A DNA stretch of 64,000 bases from Eubacteriaceae bacterium (GTDB lineage: Bacteria; Bacillota; Clostridia; Peptostreptococcales; Anaerovoracaceae), in assembly GCA_902362805.1 (NCBI GenBank), contig CABIXY010000002.1, positions 372,001-436,000 of the forward strand. The letters are read 5' to 3'. A model generated the notes under the pieces. That model saw only the letters and a list, made by a program, of their open reading frames with translations, was not told where the DNA came from and made no database searches. The position numbers were made by a program, and so were the translations under genes. This document shows positions 1-52,709 of this stretch, one piece after another; positions within the stretch are counted from its first letter, which is position 1; each line of letters starts with the position of its first letter.

Positions 1-1
1 G

Positions 2-844
2 GGGGTCTATTCAGAATGCTTAGACTTGAAAGACTGCCTGATGAGAAGGCCTGGAAAAGAAATTGAAAATTTTGATTGGCAGGCAGTCAGATTTTTTTCC
101 CCAATAGATTCGGAAAAATTTCGAAATCAGCATGATAAGCTAGCACAAATTTATAGGGATCATGGCGTAAGAGTCCATTATGTAGAGGAGCAGAGAGAAG
201 ACAGACCTAATGCAATATTTTGCAGAGATCTTTGCTTTATGACACCTGAAGGTGCTATTGTAACACGTCCTGGACTTGCGGCGAGACGAGGAGAAGAGAG
301 ATATGTTGCACAGCAGCTGGCAAAACTAGGCGTTCCTATCATTCGTACAATTAACGGTGATGCGAGATTTGAAGGCGCTAATGCAATGTGGGTGGATAGG
401 CATACGTGTATTATTTCAACGGGCGGCAGAACAAATCGTCAGGGAGCAGAGCAGGTTGAACATGAACTTCGAAAGATGGGTGTAGACAATATTATTTGGA
501 TGCAGATTCCGTATGGACATGCTCATATTGATGGTCTTTTAAATTTTGCAAGTGAAGATACTGCTATGATTTTTTCGGCACAGGTTCCATATGACGTATG
601 TGATGCACTTAAGAAAAAAGGTATTAAATTATTAGAGTGTCCATCTAGAACTGAGGCAAAGTTCACTGCAGCAATTAATTTTGTCGCACTGAAACCAGGT
701 TTAATCGTCCAATGCGAAGGAAATCCTAGATCAAGAGAAGTATTGGAGAAAGCTGGAATTAAAGTTATTCCTATTGATTTTTCTGAAGTTCTTAAAGGTT
801 ATGGAGCAATGCACTGCTGCACGGCCTTCTTAAAGAGAGGATAA
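2..844 (+). CDS. Guanidino-group modifying enzyme (arginine deiminase / amidinotransferase superfamily), 5'-truncated by window edge
   Basis: The frame is open from base 2, and its first residues (GVYSECLDLKDCLMRRPGKE) align with residues 35-54 of the paralog at 8218, so the true start lies upstream of the window. The TTG at 26 is not the start. Visible active-site motifs of the superfamily are CRDL (Asp), FEGAN (Glu), HIDG (His and Asp) and a C-terminal HCCT (nucleophilic Cys). These enzymes hydrolyse or transfer the amidino group of arginine-like substrates through a covalent Cys-amidino intermediate. ADI has EGGD where this protein has EGAN, so citrulline formation from arginine cannot be assumed. 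It lies just upstream of an ABC importer and probably shares its operon. The exact substrate is unknown; the family call is firm. Confidence 0.85.
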   Translation, partial: GVYSECLDLKDCLMRRPGKEIENFDWQAVRFFSPIDSEKFRNQHDKLAQIYRDHGVRVHYVEEQREDRPNAIFCRDLCFMTPEGAIVTRPGLAARRGEERYVAQQLAKLGVPIIRTINGDARFEGANAMWVDRHTCIISTGGRTNRQGAEQVEHELRKMGVDNIIWMQIPYGHAHIDGLLNFASEDTAMIFSAQVPYDVCDALKKKGIKLLECPSRTEAKFTAAINFVALKPGLIVQCEGNPRSREVLEKAGIKVIPIDFSEVLKGYGAMHCCTAFLKRG

Positions 845-900
845 TGGCGCGGCAAACTATAGAATAAACTATTGCGAAAGGTTAACAATTCAAGGAGGAA

Positions 901-2502
901 ATGATGAAACTTAAGAAATTGTTCTCAATTCTACTCATGACGGTATTGGCCGTTACTATGTACACTGGTTGTGGAGGAGGTTCAGGAGAGGCGAAAGACG
1001 ATCAAACTTTGTACCTTAGATTAACTTCGCCACTTCAAAGTACGGACTGGCAGCAAACCAGTAACTTAGACGGTAATAAAATAACAAACATTCAGCTTTT
1101 TGAAGGACTCTATGGAATGGATGAGGCCTCTGGCGGATATTACAATCTTTTGGCAGAAAAAATTGATGTGAGCGATAAAGGTCGTGTATATACGATACAG
1201 TTAGTTGATGCGACATTCCAGAACGGTGAACCGTTAACAGCCAAAGATGTGGTATTCAGCTATAACTTAGCAATGAGAAACTCAAAATTTGGATATGTAA
1301 CTTCGATGATAGATAAAGTTGAGTCAAAAGACGAAAAAACGGTAGTAATCACATTAAAGTACCCATATTCTGCCATTGCGCACACATTCTTTACGATCAA
1401 AGTGATAAATCAGAAAGAATATGAGGAAATTACCGATGCTGGTCAGACTTTTGGTACCGGCCCTCATAAAGCAGGAACGGGTCCATATTACGTAAAGGAA
1501 TATGACGTATCTGCAGGTGTGAAGCTTGAAGCATATGATGATTACTGGCAAGGCGCACCAACTATTAAAGATGTAGAATATCGTGTGATTACTGATGATT
1601 CAGCAGCTGTAATTGCTTTTGAAAACGGCGAGATTGATTATTTAACGGATGCACCGCTTTCTGAATGGGATAATATTAAAAAGTCGGCTAATGATGACTG
1701 CGATTTAGTAAAGGCAAATGACATTTCTTTCTTTGCTATCAACTACAAATCAAAATCAAACGATAGCATCCTTGCAAATGAGAAGGTTAGGGAGGCCATA
1801 TTTTATGCAATAAATAAAGAAAGTATTGTTCAATCCTCGACCAATGGATTAGGAAATGTCGCTTATGAATATATGGTGCCTGAATATGTGCCGACGTCGC
1901 CAAAGGCATCAGACGGTGGATTTAAAACTTTTGATTATGATACGAAAAAAAGTCACCAGTGTCTACTTGACGCGGGATTTACAGAGGCAGAAATTAAAGC
2001 AGGTATTCCAATTGGTACAATCTTAACCTATCCTTCAGATAATTCACCAAAAGGAAAAGCTGCAGTAGTTATTCAGGATTGCTTAAAGCAGAATGGCATG
2101 ATTGCGGAAGTTGAAATAAGGGAAGCAGCTGCATGTAGTAACGACCTTTACGGTCAAAATTATGATATGTGCATCTTCTCTGATAATGGAAACTATGATT
2201 ATAACAACATTAGGCAGCAGTTACATTCTGAATCTGCTGGAATGGCTGTAGTAAGTTATAAAGACGATAAAGGAACCTTTGATTGGAAGTACATGGAGGA
2301 TCTCATAGATAAAGGCGTTGCGACAGACGATCCTGAAGAGAGATATGAAATCTATACTAAGCTTTGGAGTTATACTATGGATACAAAGACTATTTTGCCA
2401 CTATATCACAGTGCTGTTGGTATAGCATGGTCGGATAGGATTAAGGTTGATAAAATTAACCCAACTTATTACCATCTGACTGACTTTAGTTGGGCAAAGT
2501 AA
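901..2502 (+). CDS. Dipeptide/opine-type ABC transporter substrate-binding lipoprotein (SBP_bac_5 family)
   Basis: A 533-residue protein with a lipoprotein signal peptide: Lys-rich start, hydrophobic stretch and lipobox MYTGC near residue 24, so it is probably anchored outside the membrane. The body has the SBP_bac_5 layout of DppA/OppA (family-typical NGEPLTAKDVVFSY and a TGPYYVKEY strand). An AAGGAGG ribosome binding site lies at 892-898. ATG 901 and ATG 904 are both possible; spacing slightly favours 904. It heads a complete five-gene importer (901-6487) and follows a guanidino-modifying enzyme, so the ligand may be a guanidino or amino-acid conjugate rather than a plain peptide. The ligand is inferred from context, not seen. 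Confidence 0.9.
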   Translation: MMKLKKLFSILLMTVLAVTMYTGCGGGSGEAKDDQTLYLRLTSPLQSTDWQQTSNLDGNKITNIQLFEGLYGMDEASGGYYNLLAEKIDVSDKGRVYTIQLVDATFQNGEPLTAKDVVFSYNLAMRNSKFGYVTSMIDKVESKDEKTVVITLKYPYSAIAHTFFTIKVINQKEYEEITDAGQTFGTGPHKAGTGPYYVKEYDVSAGVKLEAYDDYWQGAPTIKDVEYRVITDDSAAVIAFENGEIDYLTDAPLSEWDNIKKSANDDCDLVKANDISFFAINYKSKSNDSILANEKVREAIFYAINKESIVQSSTNGLGNVAYEYMVPEYVPTSPKASDGGFKTFDYDTKKSHQCLLDAGFTEAEIKAGIPIGTILTYPSDNSPKGKAAVVIQDCLKQNGMIAEVEIREAAACSNDLYGQNYDMCIFSDNGNYDYNNIRQQLHSESAGMAVVSYKDDKGTFDWKYMEDLIDKGVATDDPEERYEIYTKLWSYTMDTKTILPLYHSAVGIAWSDRIKVDKINPTYYHLTDFSWAK

Positions 2503-2513
2503 TCGGTTTTTAG

Positions 2514-2549
2514 CAGGGATATAGTTGGACAATGCCAGCTATATCCTTG
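2514..2549 (+). promoter_or_regulatory. Intercistronic 15-bp stem-loop between binding protein and permease genes
   Basis: Arms 2514-2528 and 2535-2549 pair over 15 positions including G-U pairs, with a 6-nt loop. No long T-run follows, so it is more likely an mRNA-stabilising or attenuating hairpin that lets the binding protein be made in excess over the permeases, a common arrangement in ABC operons. Confidence 0.6.
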
Positions 2550-2637
2550 TTCTTAAAAGTGCGAGATATATATTTGGGACGGGTGAGAAAACAATATATA
2601 ATTTGCAATATAAATGCATTCTGGCAGGGAGGCAAAT

Positions 2638-3579
2638 ATGTATAAGTATGTTATAAAGAGAATACTATTCTTAATTCCGACAATTATTGGAGTAACACTC
2701 ATTATTTATTTTGTTATGAATTTGACGCCGGGAGATCCGGGAAGAGCCATTTTGGGGTCGGGTGTTTCTCAGGCGGACGTAGATGCATATAATCATGCAA
2801 TCGGTTACGATCTTCCTTTTTTACAAAAGTTTTTTCATTATTTGGGGAATATGTTTTTCCATGGCGACTTTGGTATTTCCTATGTAACGAAACAGCCAGT
2901 CTTTTATGAAATCTGGCCGCGATATATTACTACAATACAGTTGGCATTTATGGGTATGCTTGTTTCAACTGTAATTGGAATTCCTTTGGGAATATATGCA
3001 GCTGTTAAACAATACTCAGCATCAGATACGGTGGCATCCCTTACTTCTTTTTTGCTCGCTGCAGTACCTACGTTTGTATTAGGGCTAGTTCTGTTATATT
3101 TCTTTGCACTTAAGTTGAATTGGCTGCCCTCATATGGAATTCCGGATTGGACAGGATACATTATGCCAACATTAGCAATATCGATTCCGATTGCCGCACA
3201 GAATTTTCGCTTTACAAAATCATCAATGCTAGATGCAATCCATCAGGATTATGTTCGTACAGCAAGAGCCAAAGGGGCAACCGAGAAAGTCGTTATTTGG
3301 AAGCATGTTTTAAAGAATGCATTACTTCCAGTAATCACCCAAATCGGCTTAAATTTAGGACTGCTTCTTTGCGGAGCCGTAGTCGCAGAGCAACTGTTCT
3401 CTATCCAAGGCATAGGAAGTCTTATTGTTGCGAGAATTACACTGAAGGATGAACCTGTTATTATTGCCGGTACAATTTTAATATCAATTTGTTTTACCAT
3501 TGTCATGTTATTGGTTGACATTATCTATGCGTTTATTGACCCTAGGATCAGAGCGAAATATACCAAAAAGAGAGGGTAA
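2638..3579 (+). CDS. ABC transporter permease, DppB/OppB type
   Basis: A 313-residue inner-membrane permease of the binding-protein-dependent dipeptide family. The start ATG 2638 is chosen because GGGAGG lies 8 bases before it; an in-frame ATG at 2614 has no ribosome binding site. The N-terminus has the DppB pattern (YVIKRILFLIPTIIGV then MNLTPGDPG), about six hydrophobic segments follow, and the EAA-like cytoplasmic loop reads DYVRTARAKGATEKVV near residue 205. It pairs with the next permease to form the channel and docks with the two ATPases downstream. Confidence 0.92.
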   Translation: MYKYVIKRILFLIPTIIGVTLIIYFVMNLTPGDPGRAILGSGVSQADVDAYNHAIGYDLPFLQKFFHYLGNMFFHGDFGISYVTKQPVFYEIWPRYITTIQLAFMGMLVSTVIGIPLGIYAAVKQYSASDTVASLTSFLLAAVPTFVLGLVLLYFFALKLNWLPSYGIPDWTGYIMPTLAISIPIAAQNFRFTKSSMLDAIHQDYVRTARAKGATEKVVIWKHVLKNALLPVITQIGLNLGLLLCGAVVAEQLFSIQGIGSLIVARITLKDEPVIIAGTILISICFTIVMLLVDIIYAFIDPRIRAKYTKKRG

Positions 3580-3583
3580 GAAC

Positions 3584-4474
3584 ATGATGAAAAAAAATCG
3601 TTTAGAACGAAATAGCAATAGCTATCAAAAACAGAGTAATGTAAAAGAAGTCTGGAGACGTTTGAGAAAAAATAAGGGAGCGATGGTAGGACTGGTGATG
3701 TTGGTAATTATGGCGGCTGTTTTGATAGCGGCACCTCTATTTGTTTCCTATAGCTCTGCTGTAGGCCAAGATTTTTCATTGGTATTAGCCAAACCCAGCA
3801 AAGAACATATTTTCGGAAATGACGGATATGGCAGAGATATTTTTGCCAGAATCATCTATGGCGGAAGAACATCCATCGGAATTGCGCTTTTAGCAACGGC
3901 AGCTTCCTGCATCGTCGGGACGATTCTAGGAGCAATGGCTGGATATTTTGGCAGAACTGTTGATAATGTAATTATGCGTTCTTTGGATATTTTCATGTCA
4001 GTACCAGATATTCTATTTACGATGGCGGTAGTATATGCGTTGGGTGCATCATTCTTTAATTTAATCGTAGCGTTAACCTTAGCATATTTTACAAATTATG
4101 TCCGGCTTGTTCGATCTGAAGTTTTAACACTATCAGAGCAGGATTATGTGGAAGCCTCAACAGCAGGAGGAGCTACCAGCATGAGAATTATTTTGTCCCA
4201 CATTATACCAAATTCAATTGGTGTTATTATCGTGAATACAACTATGAATGTAGCAAAAATTATTCTTTATGAGTCAACACTGAGTTTTTTGGGATTAGGC
4301 ATGCCTTCTCCTCAGCCTGAATGGGGACAGATGCTCTCAGAATCTCGTGAGTTTATGAGAAACGCACCGCATTTAATGATATTTCCTGCTTTGGCAATTG
4401 TAATCACGGCATGTTCGATAAATCTAGTTGGAGATGGTCTGCGTGATTCTTTGGATCCACACCTTAAATCCTAA
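3584..4474 (+). CDS. ABC transporter permease, DppC/OppC type
   Basis: A 296-residue second permease. ATG 3584 follows the upstream stop by four bases, with an AGAGGG ribosome binding site inside the preceding codons; upstream in-frame starts overlap dppB-like coding sequence and are not needed. Features are a cytoplasmic N-terminus with a basic patch, a first membrane segment near residues 28-50, the family sequence HIFGNDGYGRDIFAR, and the EAA loop DYVEASTAGGATSMRII. The C-terminus GDGLRDSLDPHL is typical of DppC. It acts with the neighbouring permease as the heterodimeric pore. Confidence 0.92.
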   Translation: MMKKNRLERNSNSYQKQSNVKEVWRRLRKNKGAMVGLVMLVIMAAVLIAAPLFVSYSSAVGQDFSLVLAKPSKEHIFGNDGYGRDIFARIIYGGRTSIGIALLATAASCIVGTILGAMAGYFGRTVDNVIMRSLDIFMSVPDILFTMAVVYALGASFFNLIVALTLAYFTNYVRLVRSEVLTLSEQDYVEASTAGGATSMRIILSHIIPNSIGVIIVNTTMNVAKIILYESTLSFLGLGMPSPQPEWGQMLSESREFMRNAPHLMIFPALAIVITACSINLVGDGLRDSLDPHLKS

Positions 4475-4496
4475 ATTAGAGAGAAGAGGAATAAAA

Positions 4497-5510
4497 ATGG
4501 AAGACTTAAAAAGAAATGATTCAATACTGGAAATTAATGATTTATCAGTTGTTTACAAAACAGATTTGGAAACGGTAGAGGCCGTAAACGATATTAGTTT
4601 AAAAATTGAAAAGGGTAAGACTTGTGGACTTGTTGGGGAAACCGGAGCGGGTAAGACAACGACTGCTTTAAGTATTTTACGGCTGCTGCCAGAGAACACG
4701 GGACGAGTTCTCAGTGGAGAAATTAAATTTAATGGGAATAATCTTTTGAAATTAACCGAAGATGAGATGAGAAATATTCGCGGAAATTATATTTCTATGG
4801 TTTTTCAAGATCCGATGTCCGCATTAAATCCCGTCTATACGGTTGGAGAGCAGATTGGCGAAGCAATTAAACTTCACAATTCTGATCTTTCTAAAGAGGA
4901 AGTGGAAAAACATGTAGATGAAATGCTAAATCTAGTCGGAATCGTTCCATCAAGAAAAGTTGAATATCCACACCAATTTTCTGGCGGAATGAAACAAAGA
5001 GTGGTCATTGCAATTGCTTTATGCTGTGAACCAAGTTTACTTATTGCTGATGAACCGACAACTGCATTGGACGTTACGATTCAGGCTCAAGTTTTAGCGA
5101 TGATCGCGGAGTTGAGAGAACGTCTTGGCACATCAATGCTTATGATAACACATGACCTGGGAATTGTTGCTAAAATATGTGATAATGTTTGCATTATGTA
5201 TGCGGGAAAAATAGTAGAGGCAGGAACTGTAGAAGACATATTTCGTGAGGGCAAACATCATCCGTATACAAAGGGACTGTTTGGTTCTATCCCAAACTTA
5301 AAGACAAAATCCAAGCGATTAAAACCAATAGCAGGGTTGATGCCGGATCCGACGGATTTACCCAAAGGCTGCGAATTTGCACCCAGATGTGAAAGGTGTG
5401 AAGAAATTTGCCAAACCGTGAAACCTGAGATCTATGTAAATGGAACTCATAAAATTTATTGTCATCTTTATAAAAAAAGTAGGAATGCTGCTTATGACAG
5501 GGAGGAGTGA
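4497..5510 (+). CDS. ABC transporter ATP-binding protein, DppD/OppD type
   Basis: A 337-residue ATPase. ATG 4497 is preferred (AGAGGA at 4484-4489) over an in-frame ATG at 4428 inside the permease gene. Motifs in order are Walker A GETGAGKTT, Q-loop VFQDPMSALNP, signature FSGGMKQR, Walker B LLIADEPT, and the H-loop in MITHDLG. The C-terminal oligopeptide-transporter extension carries the cysteines of CEFAPRCERC. Its stop overlaps the ribosome binding site of the next ATPase, so the two are translationally close-coupled. It powers import with the following gene. Confidence 0.93.
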   Translation: MEDLKRNDSILEINDLSVVYKTDLETVEAVNDISLKIEKGKTCGLVGETGAGKTTTALSILRLLPENTGRVLSGEIKFNGNNLLKLTEDEMRNIRGNYISMVFQDPMSALNPVYTVGEQIGEAIKLHNSDLSKEEVEKHVDEMLNLVGIVPSRKVEYPHQFSGGMKQRVVIAIALCCEPSLLIADEPTTALDVTIQAQVLAMIAELRERLGTSMLMITHDLGIVAKICDNVCIMYAGKIVEAGTVEDIFREGKHHPYTKGLFGSIPNLKTKSKRLKPIAGLMPDPTDLPKGCEFAPRCERCEEICQTVKPEIYVNGTHKIYCHLYKKSRNAAYDREE

Positions 5511-5515
5511 GACAG

Positions 5516-6487
5516 ATGGGCAATGACAAAAGAATTCCGTTAATAGAAACAAAAAATCTCAAAAAGTATTTCAAAACTGGTTCAGGAATGCTTCATGCTG
5601 TTGACTCCATTAATATAAAACTATTTCAAGGCGAAACCATAGGCATAGTAGGTGAATCCGGCTGTGGGAAATCGACACTAGGAAGAACAATTTTAAAACT
5701 GATCGATCCTACAGAGGGAGAGGTGCTTTTTAACGGACAAGATATTAGCAACTATAATACTAGGAAAATGCGCCCTTTGAGGAAAGAAATGCAGATTATC
5801 TTTCAAGACCCTTATTCTAGTTTGGATCCTAGAAAGTCAGTTATCGATATCATTTCAGAATATATGCTGATTCAAAAAACCTTAAAAAGCCGTAAAGAAG
5901 CATATAATCATGCTGCGGAACTAATGGATCTTGTTGGACTAGCAAGAAGATACGCGGATGCTTATCCGCACGAATTAGATGGTGGTCGCCGCCAACGCAT
6001 AGGGATCGCAAGAGCATTATCTTTGAATCCCAAGTTTATTGTCTGCGATGAACCTGTATCGGCGCTGGATGTTTCAATACAGGCACAAATTTTGAACCTG
6101 CTAATGGACATACAGGACGAACTGAATTTGTCCTATATGTTTGTTACACATGATTTGTCAGTAGTAAAACACATATCTGACAATATTATGGTAATGTATC
6201 TAGGGGTATGTGTTGAATTTGCAACCTCTGATGACTTATTTGAGAACCCGCTTCATCCTTATACGCAGGTCCTTTTGGATGCAATACCCGAGCCTTCCCT
6301 AGATAAACGAGACCAACCCTTTAAATTGATAAAAGGAGAAGTTTCAAGTCCTATAGATCCAAAACCAGGATGCCGGTTTGCAAGCAGATGCGAACACTGT
6401 ATGCCTCAGTGTATGGAAGAAGCCCCTGAATATGTAGAAACGTTGCCCGGGCATTTTGTTGCATGCTATATGGTTAATGAAAAATAA
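5516..6487 (+). CDS. ABC transporter ATP-binding protein, DppF/OppF type
   Basis: A 323-residue partner ATPase. ATG 5516 sits 10 bases after GGAGG at 5501-5505; a GTG at 5507 is too close to that site. It has Walker A GESGCGKST, Q-loop IIFQDPYSSLDPR, Walker B FIVCDEPVSALD and C-terminal CRFASRCEHC. The signature is ELDGGRRQR, with Asp in place of the usual Ser of SGGQ, a noticeable deviation. In a heteromeric ABC pair one degenerate signature is tolerated. It is the last gene of the importer and is followed by a terminator. Confidence 0.92.
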   Translation: MGNDKRIPLIETKNLKKYFKTGSGMLHAVDSINIKLFQGETIGIVGESGCGKSTLGRTILKLIDPTEGEVLFNGQDISNYNTRKMRPLRKEMQIIFQDPYSSLDPRKSVIDIISEYMLIQKTLKSRKEAYNHAAELMDLVGLARRYADAYPHELDGGRRQRIGIARALSLNPKFIVCDEPVSALDVSIQAQILNLLMDIQDELNLSYMFVTHDLSVVKHISDNIMVMYLGVCVEFATSDDLFENPLHPYTQVLLDAIPEPSLDKRDQPFKLIKGEVSSPIDPKPGCRFASRCEHCMPQCMEEAPEYVETLPGHFVACYMVNEK

Positions 6488-6517
6488 ATATGGATGTTCT
6501 TAAATGTTAAAATCATA

Positions 6518-6572
6518 AAATGGCTATGGAAACTTGAAAATATTTTAATGAAAGGGTTTATAGCCATTTTTT
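6518..6572 (+). terminator. Rho-independent terminator after importer operon
   Basis: Arms 6518-6528 and 6560-6570 (AAAATGGCTAT / ATAGCCATTTT) are perfectly complementary and end in a T-run. The loop is long (31 nt) and AT-rich. Confidence 0.65.
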
Positions 6573-6599
6573 GGTGGGAAGATCTTGAGTTTTAGGCAA

Positions 6600-6628
6600 T
6601 TAACAAATGCCAATTTATGTGTTATCAT
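6600..6628 (+). promoter_or_regulatory. Sigma-A-type promoter for the RocR-like activator
   Basis: TTAACA at 6600-6605, a 17-bp spacer, and TATCAT at 6623-6628 lie 28 bp before the start codon. This suggests the activator is made from a housekeeping promoter while its target uses sigma-54. Confidence 0.5.
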
Positions 6629-6656
6629 TTATATAAAATAGCATGGAGGGGCGAAT

Positions 6657-8039
6657 ATGATTAGAAGATGTGTTGAACAAATTTTAAACTTATATAATTT
6701 TATTGACGGCATAATGGTTACAGACGCTAAAGGCCGCATAGAGTTTTACCAGACTTTCCGGCCGGATCTTAACGATCTGAAAGGGGAAAAGGTAATCGGA
6801 AGAAATTTGTTTGATATATATCCGACATTAGAACGAGCAAATAGCACAATTTTCAAAGTTTTGGAAACCGGCAAGCCGATATTTAACCAATTTCAGGAAA
6901 TCCCAACATATACGGGGAAAATCATTCGATCTTTAAATTCAACATTGCCGCTGACAGATGGAGAGAAAATCATTGGCGCAGTAGATATTTCCAGATATAT
7001 CGATACACCTTATGCGAGGGAAGGAATCGTTTTATCCCCAAAGGAAACCAAAAAAAGCAATTTGTATTCCGTAGAAGATATCATATCCAATTCTCCTCAA
7101 ATGGATATGGTGAAAGAAAAAATTCGTAAAATAGCAAATACAGATTCATCGGTATTGATATGTGGCGAGACGGGTACAGGTAAGGAATTGGTTGCACAAT
7201 CTCTGCATACGTGCAGCAACAGAAAGAATAAAAAGTTTGTATCGCAAAACTGTGCTGCAATTCCGGCAACTTTGCTGGAAAGCATTCTGTTTGGAACCAC
7301 AAAAGGAAGTTTCACGGGAGCTGAAGATAAGGCTGGGGTTTTTGAAGTGGCAAACGGGGGCACTATCTTTTTAGATGAAATTAATTCTATGGATATGAAT
7401 GTCCAGGCGAAGATCTTAAAAGCAATAGAAGAAAAGCAAATAAAGAGAATTGGCGGGATAGAACCCATTTCAATCGATATAAAAATCATATCTGCAACGA
7501 ATGAGGACCCTATTGAATGTGTAAAAAATAAAACGATGAGGGAGGATTTGTTCTATCGTTTAAGTGTAGTGCAAATCAATATCCCGCCATTAAGAGAACG
7601 TCAAAATGATTTGTTTTATTTGGTGCATCATTTTATTGATGAATATAACAAAATGATGAATAGAAACATTATTGGCATTGATGAGAGTGTAGAAAACCTA
7701 TTCAAAAAGTATAACTGGCCAGGAAATGTCAGGGAAGTCAAAAATGTAATTGAAGGGGCGTTTAACATTGCAAGCGCCAAATTCATTCAACTGAAAGATT
7801 TGCCAGAATACTTACCGCAGGTTATCCAGAAAGAAAGAAACTACAGCAATGGCGAAACGGATGTAGACTTTGAGGCTCCCCTGTTTTCGTTAAAAACAGC
7901 AGTTGAGGATTATGAGAAAAAAATTATTGAGAAGGCCATTGACAAAACTGGAAGTTATGTTCTAGCTGCACAAAAATTAAAAGTTACGAAGCAGGCTCTG
8001 AATTATAAATTAAACAAATATCATATTACTAAAGAATAA
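6657..8039 (+). CDS. RocR-like sigma-54-dependent transcriptional activator (PAS, AAA+, Fis HTH)
   Basis: A 460-residue enhancer-binding protein, the same length class as Bacillus RocR, the activator of arginine catabolism. An N-terminal PAS-like sensor occupies about residues 8-115. The AAA+ domain has Walker A GETGTGKE (about 170), the sigma-54 contact loop GSFTGAED (about 220), Walker B GGTIFLDEI and sensor residues in FYRLSVVQINIPPLRER. A C-terminal Fis-type helix-turn-helix reads VLAAQKLKVTKQALNYK. The ribosome binding site GGAGGGG precedes ATG 6657. It lies between two guanidino-enzyme operons, the second with a clear -24/-12 promoter, so it most likely activates that promoter in response to the substrate or a product. 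The effector is unknown. Confidence 0.9.
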   Translation: MIRRCVEQILNLYNFIDGIMVTDAKGRIEFYQTFRPDLNDLKGEKVIGRNLFDIYPTLERANSTIFKVLETGKPIFNQFQEIPTYTGKIIRSLNSTLPLTDGEKIIGAVDISRYIDTPYAREGIVLSPKETKKSNLYSVEDIISNSPQMDMVKEKIRKIANTDSSVLICGETGTGKELVAQSLHTCSNRKNKKFVSQNCAAIPATLLESILFGTTKGSFTGAEDKAGVFEVANGGTIFLDEINSMDMNVQAKILKAIEEKQIKRIGGIEPISIDIKIISATNEDPIECVKNKTMREDLFYRLSVVQINIPPLRERQNDLFYLVHHFIDEYNKMMNRNIIGIDESVENLFKKYNWPGNVREVKNVIEGAFNIASAKFIQLKDLPEYLPQVIQKERNYSNGETDVDFEAPLFSLKTAVEDYEKKIIEKAIDKTGSYVLAAQKLKVTKQALNYKLNKYHITKE

Positions 8040-8051
8040 AGGCAGTAAAAG

Positions 8052-8098
8052 AAAAGGGAAAGGGTAAAAAAATAATTTTTACCCTTTCCCTTTTTAAT
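8052..8098 (+). terminator. Rho-independent terminator after activator gene
   Basis: A near-perfect 19-bp inverted repeat (8052-8070 with 8076-8094) rich in A/T at its base and followed by T's. It may work in both directions. Confidence 0.8.
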
Positions 8099-8100
8099 TT

Positions 8101-8133
8101 AGCTTCAACAAAAAAACAGGGGTTTTTTAAGCT
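8101..8133. promoter_or_regulatory. Candidate activator-binding inverted repeat upstream of sigma-54 promoter
   Basis: Nested inverted repeats AGCTT/AAGCT (8101-8105, 8129-8133) and AAAAAAC/GTTTTTT (8111-8117, 8122-8128) lie about 30-60 bp upstream of the -24 box, where an enhancer site for a RocR-like activator could sit. Position and symmetry are seen; the function is inferred. Confidence 0.35.
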
Positions 8134-8161
8134 ATTTTGAGGAAAAAATCACGGTTTTATA

Positions 8162-8177
8162 TGGCACAACTTTTGCT
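8162..8177 (+). promoter_or_regulatory. Sigma-54 (-24/-12) promoter
   Basis: TGGCAC at 8162-8167 and TTGCT at 8173-8177 match the sigma-54 consensus, with exactly 10 bp between the invariant GG (8163-8164) and GC (8175-8176). It is 40 bp upstream of the start codon of the second guanidino-enzyme gene and just after the gene for a sigma-54 activator. Confidence 0.88.
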
Positions 8178-8217
8178 TGAATTATTAGTAAAGTTTATCA
8201 AGCGGAAGGAGATCGAA

Positions 8218-9165
8218 ATGGAAAAAAGATATATTGATGTGGAAGCAATCCCGGGAGAAAGGTGGTTTCCAAAAGAGACGACATTTGAAGAGGACATAAA
8301 TGAATATTGGGGCGATTGGGGTGTTTCTTCAGAGGTGGATACGCTAAGAGCAGTTTTAATGCGAAGACCGGGAAAAGAAATCGAAACATTCGATGCCAAT
8401 GAGGTTAGGTTTACAGATGAGCCAATTGATGTTGAATTAATGAGAGCTCAGCATGATGCCGTTTCAGATATTTATAGAGAACATGGTGTAAAAGTGTATT
8501 ACGTTGAAGAACAAAGAACCGATCGGCCTAATGCAATCTATTGCAGGGATTTGATGTTTATGACGCCTGAAGGCGCGATTATAACAAGACCGGGAATGGC
8601 GGCAAGACGTGGAGAAGAGCGCTATGTTGCACAGGCTTTATCTAAAATAGGCGTGCCGATTTTAAGAACAATAGCTGGCGACGGGATGTTCGAAGGCGCA
8701 AATGCTATGTGGATTGATAGAAAAACAGTGATTTTATCGACGGGGAGCAGATGCAATCGCAGCGGATATGAACAAGTAGAATATGAATTAAAAAGGATGG
8801 GCGTAACAGAAATACTTCACTTGCCACAGCCGTTTAGTAATATCCATATTGACGGTCTTATGAATGCGATCAGCAATGACCAGGTTCTCATTCATGCGGG
8901 TCAGGTTCCCTATGACATTGTAATGACCCTAAAAAAGAAAGGCATTGAAATTATTGAGGCTCCATCAAGAACTGAGGTCAGAGAAACCGGAGGAATCAAT
9001 TTTGTTGCGTTAGAACCAGGGAAAATCGTAATGCCTACAGGAAATCCCCGTACTCAAGAGTTGCTGGAAAAGAAGGGTGTCAAAATAATAACCGTTGATA
9101 TTAGTGAAATAAAAAAAGGCAGAGGAATGTTACACTGTATGACGGCATTTTTAAAGAGAGGTTAA
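8218..9165 (+). CDS. Guanidino-group modifying enzyme, second paralog
   Basis: A 315-residue paralog of the gene at 2-844. ATG 8218 (AAGGAG before it) is the start; an in-frame ATG at 8137 lies upstream of the sigma-54 promoter and cannot be transcribed from it. Putative catalytic residues by superfamily pattern are Asp111 (CRDL), Glu159 (FEGAN), His210 and Asp212 (HIDG) and Cys307 (HCMT, the same motif as the ADI nucleophile). Residues around the active site differ from the first paralog (for example ETGGINF versus FTAAINF), so the two may act on different substrates or in sequence. It heads a five-gene catabolic operon. Family firm, reaction unknown. Confidence 0.87.
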   Translation: MEKRYIDVEAIPGERWFPKETTFEEDINEYWGDWGVSSEVDTLRAVLMRRPGKEIETFDANEVRFTDEPIDVELMRAQHDAVSDIYREHGVKVYYVEEQRTDRPNAIYCRDLMFMTPEGAIITRPGMAARRGEERYVAQALSKIGVPILRTIAGDGMFEGANAMWIDRKTVILSTGSRCNRSGYEQVEYELKRMGVTEILHLPQPFSNIHIDGLMNAISNDQVLIHAGQVPYDIVMTLKKKGIEIIEAPSRTEVRETGGINFVALEPGKIVMPTGNPRTQELLEKKGVKIITVDISEIKKGRGMLHCMTAFLKRG

Positions 9166-9167
9166 AG

Positions 9168-10268
9168 ATGGATATTTATCATGAATTAGGCGTTAAAAAA
9201 ATAATTAACGGTTGGGGAACTATTACAAAAGTTAGCGGCACTTTGATGGATGAGCGGGTTTTAGACGCGATGAAAGAAGCTTCGAAGCATTATGTTTTGG
9301 TAGAAGAAGTACATGCAAAGGCAGGAAAAAGGATAGCGGAGCTGCTTGACGTAGAAGCTGCCTGTATAACGTCAGGCGCAGCGGCCGGTATTGCAATAAC
9401 CGCAGCTGCCGCTATGACAAATGGAAATAAAGCAAGAGTTTTACAGCTTCCGGATACAACAGGAATGGCTGATGAGGCATTGATTTTGAAGTGCCACAGG
9501 ACATTATATGATCAGGCGCTTCCTATGACTGGCATTAAAGTGAGAGAAGTCGGGACAACCTCTTTTGCAGACATTGAACAGATCGAGCAGGCTATTTCTG
9601 ACAAAACTGCGATGTTCTTTTTTGTGGCGGAAGCAGAACCTATGAGGGGCAGCGTTGATATCAAAAAAATAATAAATGTATTGAACAAATATAATCTGCC
9701 AGTAGTCGTGGATGCAGCTGCAGAGATACCTGCGACAAGTAATATAAAAAAGTATTTGAAATTAGGCGCAGATATGGTAATTTTCAGTGGCGGAAAAGAA
9801 ATTAGGGGGCCGCAGGCATCAGGATTAATCTTAGGTAAAAAAAGATGGATAGAGGCTTGTAATGCAAACTGTTGTCCACAATATAGTATTGGCCGTCCAA
9901 TGAAAATTGATAAAGAAACGATTATCGGCTTAGTTAAGGCAATAGAACTTTTTGTTTCGAAAGACTATGAGCGGCAGTTACATCAATGGGAAGAAATGTC
10001 TGGAAAAATTGCATCGCTGCTCAAAAACAAAGGCCTTGCCGAGATAAGAACCGGCTACCCTACTGAACCAGGAATACAACCTGTGAACATTTTGAGAACT
10101 TATATTAAACCATTACGCAAAACAGCGGAAAAAGTGTTTAATGAGTTAATTGAGTTACCAACTCCAATATACTCACATCTGAACGGAAATGAATTGGTTA
10201 TTAACCCACAATGCCTTACCGTAGGGGAAATTGAATTTATGTGTCAATCAATCTTAAAAGTGTTATAA
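9168..10268 (+). CDS. PLP-dependent D-glucosaminate-6-phosphate ammonia-lyase-like enzyme (DgaE/SelA-related)
   Basis: A 366-residue fold-type I PLP enzyme of the SelA-related group that includes Salmonella DgaE. The start is two bases after the upstream stop. The N-terminal GVKKIINGWGTITKVSG, the cofactor loop CITSGAAAGIAI near residue 66 and the probable Schiff-base lysine in FSGGKEIRGPQ near residue 208 support the family. DgaE converts 2-amino-3-hydroxy sugar acid phosphates to 2-keto-3-deoxy acids with loss of ammonia. The next gene is a KDPG-type aldolase, as in the dga operon, but no PTS genes are seen, so the substrate here is probably different or is phosphorylated later by the PfkB kinase. 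Confidence 0.82.
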   Translation: MDIYHELGVKKIINGWGTITKVSGTLMDERVLDAMKEASKHYVLVEEVHAKAGKRIAELLDVEAACITSGAAAGIAITAAAAMTNGNKARVLQLPDTTGMADEALILKCHRTLYDQALPMTGIKVREVGTTSFADIEQIEQAISDKTAMFFFVAEAEPMRGSVDIKKIINVLNKYNLPVVVDAAAEIPATSNIKKYLKLGADMVIFSGGKEIRGPQASGLILGKKRWIEACNANCCPQYSIGRPMKIDKETIIGLVKAIELFVSKDYERQLHQWEEMSGKIASLLKNKGLAEIRTGYPTEPGIQPVNILRTYIKPLRKTAEKVFNELIELPTPIYSHLNGNELVINPQCLTVGEIEFMCQSILKVL

Positions 10269-10296
10269 ATGAGGAAGCAGATTAGCGGGGTGTAAG

Positions 10297-10923
10297 ATGA
10301 AAAATGAATTAAGAGAAAGCGGCGTGATTCCTGTTGTAAAAATTAGCGAGATTGAGAAAGCGGAGAGGCTGGCGGAAAGCTTACAGAAAGGTGGGATAAA
10401 CTGTGCAGAAATTACTTTCAGAGCTGAGAGAGCAGAGATCGCGATAAGTAAAATTTTGAATAGGTTTCCTAAGATGATCGTTGGCGCAGGAACAGTTCTT
10501 AGCGTTTCAGGCGCGAAAAAGGCAATCGAAGCGGGAGCCCGATTTATTGTCAGTCCAGGTTTTGACGAAGAAATAGTACAGTATTCATTGGAAAAGGGTG
10601 TGTTAGTGATTCCAGGCTGTATTACTCCGACAGAAATTCAAAAGGCTATTAAATACGGGTTGGATATTGTTAAATTTTTTCCTGCGGAGCAGTTTGGGGG
10701 ATTGAAAAGCATCAAAGCTTTAGCCGCGCCATTTCCCAATGTAAGCTTTGTTCCTACGGGAGGCATCACATTAGATAATTTAAAAGAATATATGAGCGAG
10801 CAGTCGGTATTAGCCGTCGGGGGTACATTTATGGTAAGGGAAGAACTGATTCAGACATCTCAGTGGGATAGGATTAGTCAGTTAAGTGAAAAATCCGTCG
10901 AAATTATAAAAAAATTTAGATAA
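10297..10923 (+). CDS. KDPG / 2-keto-4-hydroxyglutarate-type aldolase (Eda family)
   Basis: A 208-residue class I aldolase of normal Eda length. The Schiff-base lysine is in DIVKFFPAEQFGG (about residue 128), the catalytic glutamate in CAEITFR (about 38) and the phosphate-binding loops in PGCITPTEI and PTGGITLDN. Eda enzymes cleave 2-keto-3-deoxy acid phosphates to pyruvate and an aldehyde such as glyceraldehyde-3-phosphate. Placed between the ammonia-lyase-like enzyme and a KDG-type kinase, it most likely performs the carbon-chain cleavage of the pathway. The ribosome binding site is weak. Confidence 0.9.
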   Translation: MKNELRESGVIPVVKISEIEKAERLAESLQKGGINCAEITFRAERAEIAISKILNRFPKMIVGAGTVLSVSGAKKAIEAGARFIVSPGFDEEIVQYSLEKGVLVIPGCITPTEIQKAIKYGLDIVKFFPAEQFGGLKSIKALAAPFPNVSFVPTGGITLDNLKEYMSEQSVLAVGGTFMVREELIQTSQWDRISQLSEKSVEIIKKFR

Positions 10924-10937
10924 TATTGGGAGGAAAT

Positions 10938-11963
10938 ATGGCAAAAGTAATTACATTTGGGGAAATTATGTTAAGATTAGCGCCCAAAGGATATCTTAGA
11001 TTTTTGCAGGAGCCAGAATTTCAGGCAACAATAGGCGGAGGGGAAGCTAATGTAGCGGTCTCTTTGGCAAATTATGGAGTGGATGCAGCATTTGTTACAA
11101 AACTGCCTTCGAATGACATAGGAGATGCTGTTTTGAGAAATCTAAGAAAATACAATGTTGATACACAATATGTCAGCAGGGGCGGCGAAAGAATTGGAAT
11201 ATACTATCTGGAAAAGGGAGCGTCACAAAGGCCGTCAAAAGTGATTTATGATAGGCGATACTCGTCCTTTGCCACTTCCTTAGAAACTGATTTTGATTGG
11301 AACAAAGTTTTTAAGGGCGCAAAATGGTTTCACTTCACTGGAATTACTCCAGCTCTAAGCTTTCAATGTGCTGAAATATGTAAAATAGCAGTTATGGAAG
11401 CAAAGAAAAGGAATATAACAGTAAGCTGCGACTTGAATTATCGAAAAAATCTTTGGTCTAGCGAACAGGCATCGACCGTTATGGGTGAGCTGCTTAAATA
11501 TGTCGATCTATGTATAGCAAATGAAGAAGATGCAGAAAAAGTATTTGGAATTAAAGCACAGACATCTAACGTCAATGATGGGAGGATAAAAAGCGAAGAA
11601 TATGAATATGTTGCCAAAGCGCTTAGTGAGAAATTTGGATGTAAATACGTTGCAATCACTTTAAGAAAAAGCATTTCTGCTAGTGATAATAAGTGGAGTG
11701 CAATGCTATATACCGCAAACAAAGATTGCTTTTTTTCGAAGGAATACCTGATACATATTGTTGATCGAGTAGGCGGCGGCGACAGCTTTGGCGGCGGATT
11801 AATTTATGGGCTTTATTCTGGCATGAGTGAAAGAAACGCGTTGGAATTTGCTGTTGCATCATCATGCTTAAAACAGACAATAGAAGGAGATTTTAATCTG
11901 GTATCAATAGATGAAGTGATGCATTTAGTCAATGGAGACGCTTCTGGCCGTGTTCAGCGATAA
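10938..11963 (+). CDS. 2-keto-3-deoxygluconate-type sugar kinase (PfkB family)
   Basis: A 341-residue ribokinase-fold kinase. ATG 10938 follows GGAGG at 10929-10933; a TTG at 10926 would overlap that site. N-terminal FGEIMLRLAPKG and GGGEANVAVSLANYG form the sugar-binding part. The C-terminal PfkB signature GGGDSFGGGLIYG holds the catalytic Asp. KdgK phosphorylates 2-keto-3-deoxygluconate to KDPG, the substrate of the adjacent aldolase. This implies that the free keto acid, not a PTS-phosphorylated sugar, is the intermediate. Confidence 0.88.
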   Translation: MAKVITFGEIMLRLAPKGYLRFLQEPEFQATIGGGEANVAVSLANYGVDAAFVTKLPSNDIGDAVLRNLRKYNVDTQYVSRGGERIGIYYLEKGASQRPSKVIYDRRYSSFATSLETDFDWNKVFKGAKWFHFTGITPALSFQCAEICKIAVMEAKKRNITVSCDLNYRKNLWSSEQASTVMGELLKYVDLCIANEEDAEKVFGIKAQTSNVNDGRIKSEEYEYVAKALSEKFGCKYVAITLRKSISASDNKWSAMLYTANKDCFFSKEYLIHIVDRVGGGDSFGGGLIYGLYSGMSERNALEFAVASSCLKQTIEGDFNLVSIDEVMHLVNGDASGRVQR

Positions 11964-12012
11964 AAATAAAGATTGTTATAAGAATTGAAGCATGATTGGA
12001 GGAACATCAGAA

Positions 12013-13173
12013 ATGATTTCAGAAAACACAAAGAGTATTCAGAATTCCAAGATTAGGGATATGTTTCATTTAGCATTACAGTATGAAAATCCTGTGAATT
12101 TGACAATAGGTGAACCTGATTTTAGCGCATCGGATGATGTTGCAAAGGCGGCGTGTAAAGCAATCATAGAAGGAAAAACGAAATACTCTGAGAACGCGGG
12201 CATTTTGTTGCTACGAGAGAAAATTAGCCGATACCTGGAAAAAGAATTGAACTTGAACTATGATTCTGAAAAAGAAATCACAGTGACACCTGGAGCTATG
12301 GGCGGACTATTTCAGACCCTTAAAACAATTCTAAATCCAGGCGACGAGGTTATTGTAAATGAACCTTGTTGGACTAACTACATACAACAGATAACAATGT
12401 GCGGTGGGGCCCCTATTAGTGTGGGTACAAAAGCGGAGAATGGTTTTTCAATAGATGTGCGTGCAATTTCAGAGGCCATTAACAAAAAAACAAAGGCAAT
12501 TATTTTGAATTCTCCCTGCAATCCAACAGGCAATATAATAAGTAGGAGGGACTTAAAAGAATTAGCTGCAATCGTGAGAGAAAAAAATATTCTTGTGATT
12601 TCTGATGAGGTATACAAGCATATCTGTTTTGATGAAAGTAAATTTAATAGTATGGCTACAATCCCTGGAATGAAAGAAAGAACTGTAGTGATTGACAGCT
12701 TTTCCAAAAGTTATGCGATGACAGGCTTTCGCATAGGATATGTAGCAGGACCGGAAGAAGTAATATCAAATATTACAAAATTACAGGAAAATATTTCAGC
12801 TTGTGTTTCAATGCCAAGCCAGTATGCAGCGGTGGCGGCATTAGATAACGATGGAAGACATTTAAATAGAATGGTGCAGACATATAAGCTGAGACGAGAT
12901 TATATAATGAAAAAAACAGAAGAAATCCCTTTCATCTCGTGTTCTTTGCCTAAAGGAACATTTTATGCCTTTATTGATATACACAATACGGGAATGAGCA
13001 GTGAAGAATTTGCTATTGAGCTTCTAAAGGATAAACAAATTGTGGTAGTCCCGGGGACTGCTTTTGGAGAAAAGGGCGAAGGTTATATAAGGCTGTCATT
13101 TGCCACTTCAATGAAAAATATAGAATTGGGCATGGAAGGAATGAAAGCTTTCGTAATAGAAAATTTTGCTTAA
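12013..13173 (+). CDS. Class I/II PLP aminotransferase
   Basis: A 386-residue fold-type I aminotransferase. ATG 12013 lies 10 bases after TTGGAGG; the ATG at 11992 precedes that site. Family motifs are TPGAMGGLFQTL, NSPCNPTG, the Asp of ISDEVYKH and the PLP lysine in SFSKSYAMTGFRIGY (about residue 232), with the substrate arginine in YIRLSFA near the C-terminus. Related enzymes act on aspartate, aromatic or basic amino acids. As the last gene of the sigma-54 operon it may transaminate the amino-acid half of the imported compound. The exact specificity cannot be read. Confidence 0.88.
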   Translation: MISENTKSIQNSKIRDMFHLALQYENPVNLTIGEPDFSASDDVAKAACKAIIEGKTKYSENAGILLLREKISRYLEKELNLNYDSEKEITVTPGAMGGLFQTLKTILNPGDEVIVNEPCWTNYIQQITMCGGAPISVGTKAENGFSIDVRAISEAINKKTKAIILNSPCNPTGNIISRRDLKELAAIVREKNILVISDEVYKHICFDESKFNSMATIPGMKERTVVIDSFSKSYAMTGFRIGYVAGPEEVISNITKLQENISACVSMPSQYAAVAALDNDGRHLNRMVQTYKLRRDYIMKKTEEIPFISCSLPKGTFYAFIDIHNTGMSSEEFAIELLKDKQIVVVPGTAFGEKGEGYIRLSFATSMKNIELGMEGMKAFVIENFA

Positions 13174-22819: not shown

Positions 22820-24059
22820 GGCGTCAGACGGGGAGAACCTGCTCTGCCATGGTGATAACAAAGTTTTCATGAAGACTTTGCTCGATGAGCGGCATATGGC
22901 GGGAAAAATACAGATGATTTATATCGATCCGCCCTTTTTTTCAAAATCTAACTATGATGCTGTGGTCAAGGCTGCAGGCACCAACATCAAACATCTGGCA
23001 TATGGCGACAAATGGGAGAAAGGTCTTTCTGAATATCTGAAGATGCTGGCGGTGCGCCTCTATCTGATGAAAGATCTGCTGGCCGATGACGGTCTGATTT
23101 GGCTGCATTTGGACTGGCATGTGGTGCACTATGCAAAGGTTCTGATGGATGAAATCTTCGGAGAGAAAAACTTTGTCAATGAAATCATCTGGACTTACAA
23201 ATCCGGGGGGACCAGCAAGAAACATTTCGCCAGAAAGCATGATACGATTTTGGTATATGCCAAAGGACCAAAGTATCAGTTTTACCCTCTGCGGGAGAAA
23301 TCCTACAACAGGCAGTTCAAGCCTTATCGTTTCAAAGGCGTGAAAGAATATAAGGACGAAATGGGCTGGTACACCATGGTGAATATGAAGGACGTGTGGA
23401 ACATAGATATGGTAGGACGGACTTCCGCGGAGAGAACCGGTTATGCAACGCAGAAACCAGAGCAGCTTCTTTCACGGATGATCGAGAGCTGTACCCGGGA
23501 GGGAGATATCTGTGCAGATTTTTTCTGTGGCAGCGGAACTCTGCCTGCAACAGCTGGACAGATGGACAGGAGATTTATCGCCTGCGATTCAGGCAGTCTG
23601 GCCATTGAAAGTACCATAAAAAGACTGGCCAGACAGGAAGAATCTTTCCAGGTTTTTGATTTAAAACCGAATGGGAAGGCAAAAATAGATGCAGTCGTGG
23701 AAGTCAGAGAAGAGGAGATTCCTTCCTCTGACAAACGCCTTTTGAAGTTAAGCCTGGTGTCCTTGAAGGAGCGGGAACTAGCTAGGACTGTAGAGAAGAA
23801 GTCGAAGGACAGGGTGAAGCAGGTTCTAAAAGATGACTCACTGCAGATGGTTGAAGGTTGGAGTATCGATTTTCATCATACAGACGGCGTCCATCGCCCC
23901 GAGGTCATCTTCGTGAGAACAAAGGGAGAACTTACGACCTCTTATGAAAAAATTATTGCAGGGAAAAGCCCTATTTGCGTAAAAATTGTAGATATCTTTG
24001 GAAATGTCGTGTTTGAAAGGATAGAATATGAAGGAAACAATGAGACAGAGAATCGTTGA
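22716..24059 (+). CDS. Orphan site-specific DNA methyltransferase (N4/N6 type, beta-like motif order)
   Basis: A 447-residue methyltransferase. Catalytic motif IV YIDPPFF (about residue 69) precedes the SAM-binding motif I ADFFCGSGTLPATA (about 270), giving the beta-class order; TGYATQKPEQLL sits just before motif I. About 130 residues after motif I form a C-terminal part that I do not recognise. GGAAAGG precedes ATG 22716 within ygiQ, so translation would be coupled by a 104-bp overlap. No restriction endonuclease or specificity gene is nearby. Whether it is DNA-directed or modifies another target cannot be told from sequence. Confidence 0.82.
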   Translation: MSLIKEFAKMIGESQRQYKNVSAKPLLLTEEVGAEASDGENLLCHGDNKVFMKTLLDERHMAGKIQMIYIDPPFFSKSNYDAVVKAAGTNIKHLAYGDKWEKGLSEYLKMLAVRLYLMKDLLADDGLIWLHLDWHVVHYAKVLMDEIFGEKNFVNEIIWTYKSGGTSKKHFARKHDTILVYAKGPKYQFYPLREKSYNRQFKPYRFKGVKEYKDEMGWYTMVNMKDVWNIDMVGRTSAERTGYATQKPEQLLSRMIESCTREGDICADFFCGSGTLPATAGQMDRRFIACDSGSLAIESTIKRLARQEESFQVFDLKPNGKAKIDAVVEVREEEIPSSDKRLLKLSLVSLKERELARTVEKKSKDRVKQVLKDDSLQMVEGWSIDFHHTDGVHRPEVIFVRTKGELTTSYEKIIAGKSPICVKIVDIFGNVVFERIEYEGNNETENR

Positions 24060-27086: not shown

Positions 27087-27127
27087 GCCTCATACCCACT
27101 CAGAATATCAGAAAAGAGGTAAACACA

Positions 27128-52697: not shown

Positions 52698-52709
52698 AAT
52701 AACCTCCTG

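Follow-up and report, generated by a model that had tools for sequence, protein, structure and literature searches.

Two putative guanidino-modifying enzymes, a peptide-type importer, a sigma-54 activator and a set of sugar-acid enzymes are encoded side by side in the locus studied here, which raises the question whether they form one catabolic pathway. The preliminary description of this DNA proposed as the common substrate a guanidino- or amidino-bearing sugar acid, a hydroxylated arginine derivative or a glycation/opine product. We examined the 64 kb window (the whole stretch of DNA analysed) and compared its genes with those of related loci.

Gene content and composition

An ORF check of the window gave twelve ORFs within positions 2-13173, and thus all twelve genes previously listed were recovered at the positions claimed for them. 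In five of the twelve, the longest ORF begins 4-28 codons upstream and the inner ATG was taken as the start. The families of the ADI-like, importer, activator, SelA-like, Eda, kinase and aminotransferase genes were assigned by Pfam matches above the cut-offs. The features are as follows:

2..844, plus strand: deiminase B (ADI-type), 5' end outside the window; PF02274, 64% identity to deiminase A
901..2502, plus strand: substrate-binding lipoprotein, family 5 (dipeptide/nickel/opine type); PF00496, 228 bits
2638..3579, plus strand: DppB-type permease; PF00528
3584..4474, plus strand: DppC-type permease; PF00528
4497..5510, plus strand: DppD-type ATPase; PF00005, PF08352
5507..6487, plus strand: DppF-type ATPase; PF00005, PF08352
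6657..8039, plus strand: sigma-54 enhancer-binding activator (sensor region at the N-terminus, HTH of the Fis type); PF00158, 219 bits; PF02954, 22.4 bits (cut-off 22)
8162..8177, plus strand: predicted sigma-54 promoter, TGGCACAACTTTTGCT; 12/12 consensus match
8218..9165, plus strand: deiminase A (ADI-type); PF02274
9168..10268, plus strand: SelA-like PLP ammonia-lyase, related to DgaE but distinct from it; PF03841; 7lc0, 158.7 bits
10297..10923, plus strand: Eda-type KDPG/KHG aldolase; PF01081; TIGR01182
10938..11963, plus strand: KDG kinase (PfkB family); PF00294; 2afb, 384 bits
11992..13173, plus strand: aminotransferase, class I/II; PF00155; 1dju, 293 bits

All twelve genes have a GC content of 36-41%, compared with a mean of 44.6% for the rest of the window, and in G540, the nearest relative available, about 18 kb examined upstream of rlmN did not contain the block. 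Hence, we regard the 13 kb block as a low-GC island that was probably acquired and comprises two transcription units in the same orientation. It was not found upstream of rlmN in G454 and G547 either, where about 2 kb each were examined.

The predicted sigma-54 promoter and the activator

The site at 8162, just upstream of the deiminase A gene (8218), is the only 12/12 sigma-54 match on both strands of the 64 kb, while three others reach 11. We compared 62 ADI genes, among them both of those in the window, and 36 have a site scoring 11 or 12/12 upstream, as against 6 of 1240 shuffles, which preserve base composition only and serve as a control for this count, not for the 64-kb scan. Such sites precede 26 of the 33 A genes and 10 of the 29 B genes, B often lying directly behind A. 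Judged from the sequence, the proposed sigma-54 control of the block is well supported by the 12/12 site and by this enrichment.

The activator was previously described as a RocR-like sigma-54 activator. The second part of this name stands, since the protein has a PF00158 AAA+ domain and GSFTGA in its translation, which we take to be the GAFTGA-type loop of sigma-54 activators. The likeness to RocR found no backing among the matches listed: no RocR model is among the best 25 of 28 NCBIfam matches, so that RocR was rejected as the nearest regulator, and the best model among them is PrdR (NF041552) with 351.7 bits, under its cut-off of 795. The locus has in common with the PrdR and OrdR regulons of Clostridiales an enhancer-binding activator, a sigma-54 site and amino-acid catabolic genes, and the PF03553 (Na+/H+ antiporter family) transporter of related A/B loci may be compared with nhaC of the OrdR regulon (PMC6615313). 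It differs in that the relevant passages of that paper name no deiminase pair, and in the score of the window's activator (352 bits against the PrdR cut-off of 795).

The sensor region (first 130 residues) shares at most 56% identity with any other activator compared. Its closest counterpart is from L070, a locus with an M28 peptidase and a PF03553 transporter, and such loci span 48-56%, whereas the identity to the activators of L049 and L061 is 48%, though both share the window's importer type. As identities of 48-56% give no clear answer, the sensor region was dropped as a pointer to the ligand.

Distribution of the deiminases and their importer

Within one Clostridia family (probably Anaerovoracaceae-like), 296 genomes were searched and 34 carry relatives of A and B, mostly near sigma-54 activators; with at most seven candidates scored per genome, the copies counted are an "at least" figure. 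Among 40 fetched loci, A and B occur together in 22, each with an activator in the stretch, and activator relatives are found in 31; three loci (L077, L082 and L083) gave no ADI ORF, probably owing to greedy ORF choice. Searches of viral contigs returned little or nothing.

The importer unit is conserved elsewhere as well. The order activator-B-binding protein-DppBCDF recurs in L049, L061, L102 and L103, where the B genes ahead of the same importer are 72-93% identical to the window's B; in L049, L061 and L103, both an activator gene and a sigma-54 site lie in front of B. Relatives of the binding protein (901-2502; 53-79% identity) occur in seven of the 34 genomes, in five of these directly behind an ADI gene. 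Both findings agree with the earlier view that importer and guanidino enzyme belong together. Moreover, the five importer genes have the families expected of a dipeptide/opine-type system of the Dpp/Opp kind, namely SBP_bac_5 (PF00496), two BPD permeases (PF00528) and two oligo_HPY ATPases (PF00005, PF08352).

Among the 34 A/B genomes, a canonical ArcA scores over the cut-off in 22 and within 8 bits of it in four more, and ArcC was found in 26. A and B can therefore not be regarded as the sole deiminases of the cell, and plain arginine alone is insufficient to explain the additional enzymes. A and B also differ from canonical ArcA in length (about 315 aa, against about 410 aa for ADIs) and in their occurrence as pairs with sigma-54 activators; with the ArcA model TIGR01078 they reach 80.0 bits (A) and 80.7 bits (B), the cut-off being 489.1. 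What the data support better than a single pathway is a family in which short deiminases under sigma-54 control occur in pairs, with partner genes that can be exchanged.

Residues of the deiminases

A and B were rightly described as two paralogous guanidino-modifying enzymes, as PF02274 is found in both and they are 64% identical over 281 columns. The catalytic C307, H210 and E159, placed by DDAH/ADI alignment, are identical in 32/32 A and 25/25 B sequences, and the same holds for the guanidino-binding D111 and D212, for N261 and for the carboxylate arginines R131 and R178. The roles of these residues were assigned after the passages of PMC11659421 that deal with them, according to which DDAHs have a Lys at the position of an ADI Asp, giving space for the substituted nitrogen. 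Throughout the 57 sequences of A and B, D212, two residues past the catalytic His, is Asp and not Lys, so that the replacement of the second guanidino Asp typical of dimethylargininases is absent from them. By these residues, A and B are arginine-deiminase-like rather than dimethylargininase-like. The Asp at this position and the retained R131 and R178 speak for a substrate of the arginine type whose carboxylate is free and whose guanidino end is unsubstituted, which a guanidino-sugar acid does not obviously match.

The putative amino-sugar-acid cassette

Only 2 bases separate the gene of deiminase A from that of the lyase. Of the earlier designation as a DgaE-like ammonia-lyase, the SelA/DgaE-type family holds (PF03841, 7lc0), but a true DgaE was ruled out: E-A-E is aligned with His162-His163 of DgaE, both histidines being absent, and the DgaE models score well under their cut-offs (TIGR01437, 223.5 vs 385.3; NF047797, 204 vs 600). 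K210, presumably the Schiff-base lysine, is part of an SGGK motif that corresponds to SGAK in 7lc0; the alignment stops at 7lc0 residue 261. The E-A-E motif leaves open more than one lyase substrate.

The remaining enzymes agree with their earlier assignments. The aldolase scores 244 bits with TIGR01182 (eda), over the cut-off of 156. The kinase matches 2afb, its best solved relative and a named 2-keto-3-deoxygluconate (KDG) kinase, near full length (residues 3-341); none of 19 NCBIfam models is over its cut-off, the kinase half of NF041633 giving 562.6 bits where the cut-off of 700 is set for the whole fusion. The aminotransferase belongs to PF00155. Together, Eda and the KDG kinase point to a route via KDG and KDPG. 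The Salmonella dga operon (DgaE/DgaF) likewise combines a SelA-fold lyase with a following Eda-type aldolase; the block of the window differs by the lack of a PTS gene among its twelve, by the missing His162/163 and by its KDG kinase, which suggests that the lyase substrate is unphosphorylated.

One pathway or two linked routes

The preliminary description expected the whole gene set to occur together in other genomes. We found no lyase at E 1e-60 in 349 genomes of the family (an earlier round likewise gave none in 296), a search that recovered the positive controls G001-G003; in some genomes the candidates were scored in part (e.g. 5/12), so that a few misses are possible, and in G299, G454, G515 and G540 all were scored. 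Best lyase relatives reach 52% in a class sample of 391 genomes, and an order sample of 227 genomes, with P0128 as the query, gave a single match of 37%. A genome scan with the lyase yielded six loci, none with an ADI match, and deiminase A was not found at E 1e-20 in the three of these genomes that were searched whole. A PIG-L deacetylase gene adjoins the lyase in L001, L003 and L004, and in Halorussus PIG-L lies near the lyase relative, together with a glucose dehydrogenase and a Rid protein; both observations favour the amino-sugar-acid route set out below. Two further lyase neighbourhoods, which count against it, have no PIG-L and contain either amidohydrolase/Rid genes or an importer together with a dipeptide epimerase. 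In the literature on arginine adducts/glycation, deiminases and lyases, none of the titles or abstract openings listed describes this gene set.

The lyase is thus not conserved with the deiminases, and together with the ADI-like residues and the missing DgaE histidines this leaves a single guanidino-sugar-acid pathway unproven. Co-induction of two linked routes, one of deiminase and importer and one of the amino-sugar-acid cassette, fits best, in line with the 12/12 site and the 2-base gap between A and lyase. We consider this the best explanation, and its chances of being correct about even. The computations establish the genes, the promoter sequence, the conservation of unit 1 and of A, B and the activator in other loci, the catalytic residues and the deviating composition; from these we infer all substrates, reactions and transcripts of this scheme, as well as co-induction as opposed to one linear pathway.

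In unit 1, the dipeptide-type ABC importer (901-6487) would take up a peptide or other small compound that bears arginine. The head gene of this unit encodes B, a putative Cys-dependent ADI-type deiminase, which is preceded by a predicted sigma-54 promoter in relatives and starts here beyond the window. In unit 2, the activator (6657-8039) would sense a related inducer and open the sigma-54 promoter at 8162, which would drive deiminase A and the cassette. The SelA-like PLP lyase could then convert a 2-amino-2-deoxy sugar acid to KDG and NH3, the kinase KDG to KDPG, and Eda KDPG to pyruvate and glyceraldehyde-3-phosphate, while the aminotransferase may shuttle nitrogen. Kinase and lyase may instead serve another sugar acid.

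The uniform low GC and the shared promoter could equally be compatible with one linear pathway. In it, B and A would deiminate an imported amino-sugar acid that bears a guanidino group or is linked to arginine, and the amino-sugar acid thus freed would pass through the lyase to KDG, KDPG and pyruvate. The common promoter, the 2-base spacing of A and lyase and the one composition of the twelve genes, unlike that of the rest of the window, speak for it. We nevertheless find it doubtful, as the lyase is found in 0/349 family genomes against 34/296 for A/B relatives, and its relatives in Synergistes and haloarchaea have no ADI neighbours. Furthermore, a contig of 26,104 bases seems to carry lyase and kinase, and none of the 120 listed A-type proteins comes from a contig of that length; the top 15 lyase and top 15 kinase entries, out of 120 each, entered this comparison. 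R131/R178, too, would expect an arginine-like carboxylate. A guanidino- or amidino-bearing sugar acid as the substrate is not supported.

It is rather unlikely that a single composite substrate unites the whole island. This would be an amino-sugar acid that is arginine-linked or guanidino-bearing, such as a condensation product of arginine and a sugar; the Dpp-type system would import it, the B/A pair would deiminate and release it, and lyase or aminotransferase would convert its sugar-acid half to KDG, which goes on via KDPG to pyruvate and triose phosphate. If this were true, the members of the wider A/B family would be specialised for various modified arginines and would each come with an activator and an unpacking enzyme of their own. 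A chance neighbourhood of unrelated genes would agree with the lack of conservation of the cassette with the deiminases, but with one sigma-54 site, the 2-base spacing and a uniform composition we judge it quite improbable.

The degradation of Nomega-substituted arginine, i.e. dimethylarginine or glycation adducts of glucosone or 3-deoxyglucosone, by A and B to citrulline and an amine is very unlikely. The sugar adducts would release glucosaminate, a substrate for the lyase, or 2-amino-2,3-dideoxyhexonate, one for the aminotransferase, and both lead to KDG. Given the chemistry by which glucosone and 3-deoxyglucosone form adducts with arginine, such a route would give each of the four cassette enzymes a role. 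The best NCBIfam model for A is indeed the dimethylargininase model (NF045660), but its 101.7 bits (77.1 for B) are far from the cut-off of 340, and the best for B is an arginine deiminase model with 81.5 bits. The Asp in 57/57 sequences, where DDAHs have Lys by the rule taken from passages of PMC11659421, led us to downgrade dimethylargininase activity and glycation-adduct hydrolysis alike. In its passages on the two compounds, PMC10161224 gives glucosone and 3-deoxyglucosone for foods and mentions arginine adducts of neither. Finally, catabolism of gamma-hydroxyarginine by deimination, transamination and Eda as a 4-hydroxy-2-keto-acid aldolase is highly improbable: the Eda model includes 4-hydroxy-2-oxoglutarate aldolases and the GntC hydroxyarginine model matches the aminotransferase with 337 bits, but this misses the cut-off of 415, four other aminotransferase models score higher (PRK07682, also below its cut-off, with 397 bits), and no role is left for KDG kinase and lyase.

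Significance

If the reading of two linked, co-induced routes is right, one Clostridia family maintains paired, sigma-54-controlled short deiminases alongside the ordinary arginine deiminase, tied to varying transporters or amide-cleaving partners. This would suggest that anaerobes have specialised routes for arginine that is modified or bound in peptides, and the window would provide an example of an amino-sugar-acid cassette placed under a sigma-54 switch.

Gene block and promoter

We found a block of 13.2 kb, encoded on the + strand throughout, with genes for two proteins of the arginine deiminase/dimethylargininase (ADI/DDAH) type, a sigma-54 activator and a full family-5 ABC importer, and with a run of lyase, aldolase, kinase and aminotransferase genes. 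ORF calls and family searches of the window confirmed the gene positions of the preliminary description:

2-844, +, deiminase B, truncated by the window edge
901-6487, +, importer (binding protein 901-2502, then DppBCDF)
6657-8039, +, sigma-54 activator
8218-9165, +, deiminase A
9168-10268, +, SelA-like PLP lyase
10297-10923, +, Eda aldolase
10938-11963, +, KDG kinase
11992-13173, +, aminotransferase

The sigma-54 site TGGCACAACTTTTGCT starts at 8162 and ends 40 bases 5' of the deiminase A start. It is the sole 12-of-12 match on both strands of the 64 kb, and 11 matches occur at three other sites. Since the lyase begins 2 bases after the deiminase A stop, the genes from deiminase A to the aminotransferase look like one transcript.

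Elsewhere in the window, a T-box leader precedes the genes of an AMP-binding enzyme and a Trp/Tyr-tRNA synthetase (26812-27060 and 27050-29396). Ordinary riboflavin genes lie behind an FMN riboswitch (51492-54721, - strand), and secretion/pilus-type genes (T2SSE, two T2SSF proteins, DUF5702, DUF6382) at 56904-62831. At 22716-24059, a DNA methylase-family (N6_N4_Mtase) ORF overlaps the end of a radical-SAM ORF, an overlap also conserved in three fetched loci (L097, L099, L101).

Low-GC island

The block looks acquired, because its GC content deviates and because it is absent from about 18 kb upstream of rlmN in G540, the nearest relative among the genomes compared. All thirteen 1-kb steps of positions 1-13,000 have 36.8-40.8% GC (mean 38.6%), compared with a mean of 44.6% (sd 3.3) for the 50 steps from 14,001, seven of which are at or below 40.5%; the other 13-kb means in the window are all at least 43.3%. 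Third-position GC is 28-38% in the twelve genes of the block versus 47-61% in five genes further on. G540 gives 81-98% matches to window genes at 15-26 kb. In two further relatives (G454, G547), the block was not seen in the roughly 2 kb readable upstream of rlmN. Four B genes of other species have 46-58% GC, which is not low relative to their own stretches.

Paired deiminases in relatives

With deiminase A as query, matches at E 1e-60 or better were found in 34 of 296 genomes of one Clostridia family and in 1 of 291 genomes of a class-wide sample; three of the 34 have at least seven matching genes each. Canonical arginine deiminase (ArcA) is above cut-off in 22 of the 34 genomes with A/B matches and carbamate kinase in 26, so that most of them carry the pairs on top of the usual route. 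We fetched 40 stretches around deiminase relatives and assigned each gene to A or B according to whether it was nearer to the 8218 or the 2-844 gene. ORF calling gave an ADI gene in 37 stretches and an activator in 31; A and B are both present in 22, all with an activator.

Sigma-54 sites (at least 11 of 12 matches, up to 350 bases 5' or 60 bases inside the gene) were found at 36 of 62 ADI genes of related loci, the window's two counted in, versus 6 of 1240 shuffled stretches. They precede or enter 26 of 33 A genes and 10 of 29 B genes, and B genes often lie directly downstream of A. The loci differ in their partner genes.

Partner genes at 41 deiminase loci (counting that of the window)
PF03553 Na+/H+ antiporter-family transporter: 15
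M28+PA peptidase, no evident signal peptide (by eye): 11
Amidohydro_3 protein: 6; second type: 4
PuuE/polysaccharide-deacetylase-like protein: 6
Amino-acid permease: 5
Dpp-type permease: 5

One recurrent arrangement has A/B pairs followed by the peptidase and the PF03553 transporter (L046, L050, L053, L054, L056, L066, L069, L070, L072). In L045, L047, L052, L064 and L065, the pairs adjoin the Amidohydro_3 protein, the PuuE/polysaccharide-deacetylase-like protein and the amino-acid permease, with two tandem activators; this arrangement may be a route that opens a ring or an amide in a modified arginine.

Deiminase B and the importer

At E 1e-60, seven of the 34 genomes have relatives of the binding protein (901-2502; 53-79%), and in five of the seven an ADI match ends 38-95 bases 5' of the binding-protein gene. 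Deiminase B and the importer are a unit of their own, since the order activator, ADI-B, binding protein, DppB, DppC, DppD, DppF recurs in four loci (L049, L061, L102, L103). In L104 (ADI 59%) the stretch ends within DppC, and no ADI gene was seen in the part fetched around the binding-protein relatives of L105 and L106.

The lyase cassette

The preliminary description had proposed a pathway in which an imported guanidino- or amidino-bearing sugar acid, hydroxylated arginine derivative or glycation/opine product loses its guanidino nitrogen, is deaminated to a 2-keto-3-deoxy acid, phosphorylated and cleaved to pyruvate. This is possible, but the cassette fails the main test of the proposal, that the gene set be conserved: at E 1e-60, the candidates scored in 349 genomes of the Clostridia family include no lyase, in a search that recovers it in genomes known to carry it. 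In G540, nothing was found for the lyase even at 1e-5.

More distant lyase relatives (52-63%), from Synergistes and a Clostridiales MAG, have no ADI gene beside them. In L001 (9134-9934), L003 (9040-9981) and L004 (9202-9972), the gene immediately 5' of the lyase encodes a PIG-L de-N-acetylase, at 55-59 bits against a cut-off of 28, which suggests that an N-acyl amino-sugar acid precedes the lyase step; in L001, an amino-acid-type binding protein is also encoded upstream. Behind the lyase of Bipolaricaulota (L005, 41%) come genes for an Eda-type aldolase and a class-V aminotransferase. Near a Halorussus relative (32%), a PIG-L deacetylase, a glucose 1-dehydrogenase and a Rid protein are encoded, and other relatives (36-38%) adjoin an amidohydrolase and a Rid-type protein (L087) or other genes. 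The database proteins P0127 (lyase, 77%) and P0243 (kinase, 78%) have a common source with the same 26,104-base longest contig; from this shared figure, lyase and kinase are probably linked in another source too.

The window lyase has the PLP lysine motif. It carries E-A-E at the positions of His162-His163 of DgaE, the SelA-fold lyase of the Salmonella dga operon, whereas these histidines are described as strictly conserved in that enzyme in PMC9529869. Because a KDG kinase adjoins the lyase, the simplest guess for its substrate is an unphosphorylated amino-sugar acid. This differs from the scheme of PMC12343721, which proposes, for a set similar to that of Halorussus, that glucosamine is converted to glucosaminate and then to its 6-phosphate.

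Overall, the best reading of the block is a single island with two linked routes that would be induced together and whose substrates are putative. Better supported is the existence of a family of short deiminases that come in pairs and are controlled by sigma-54.
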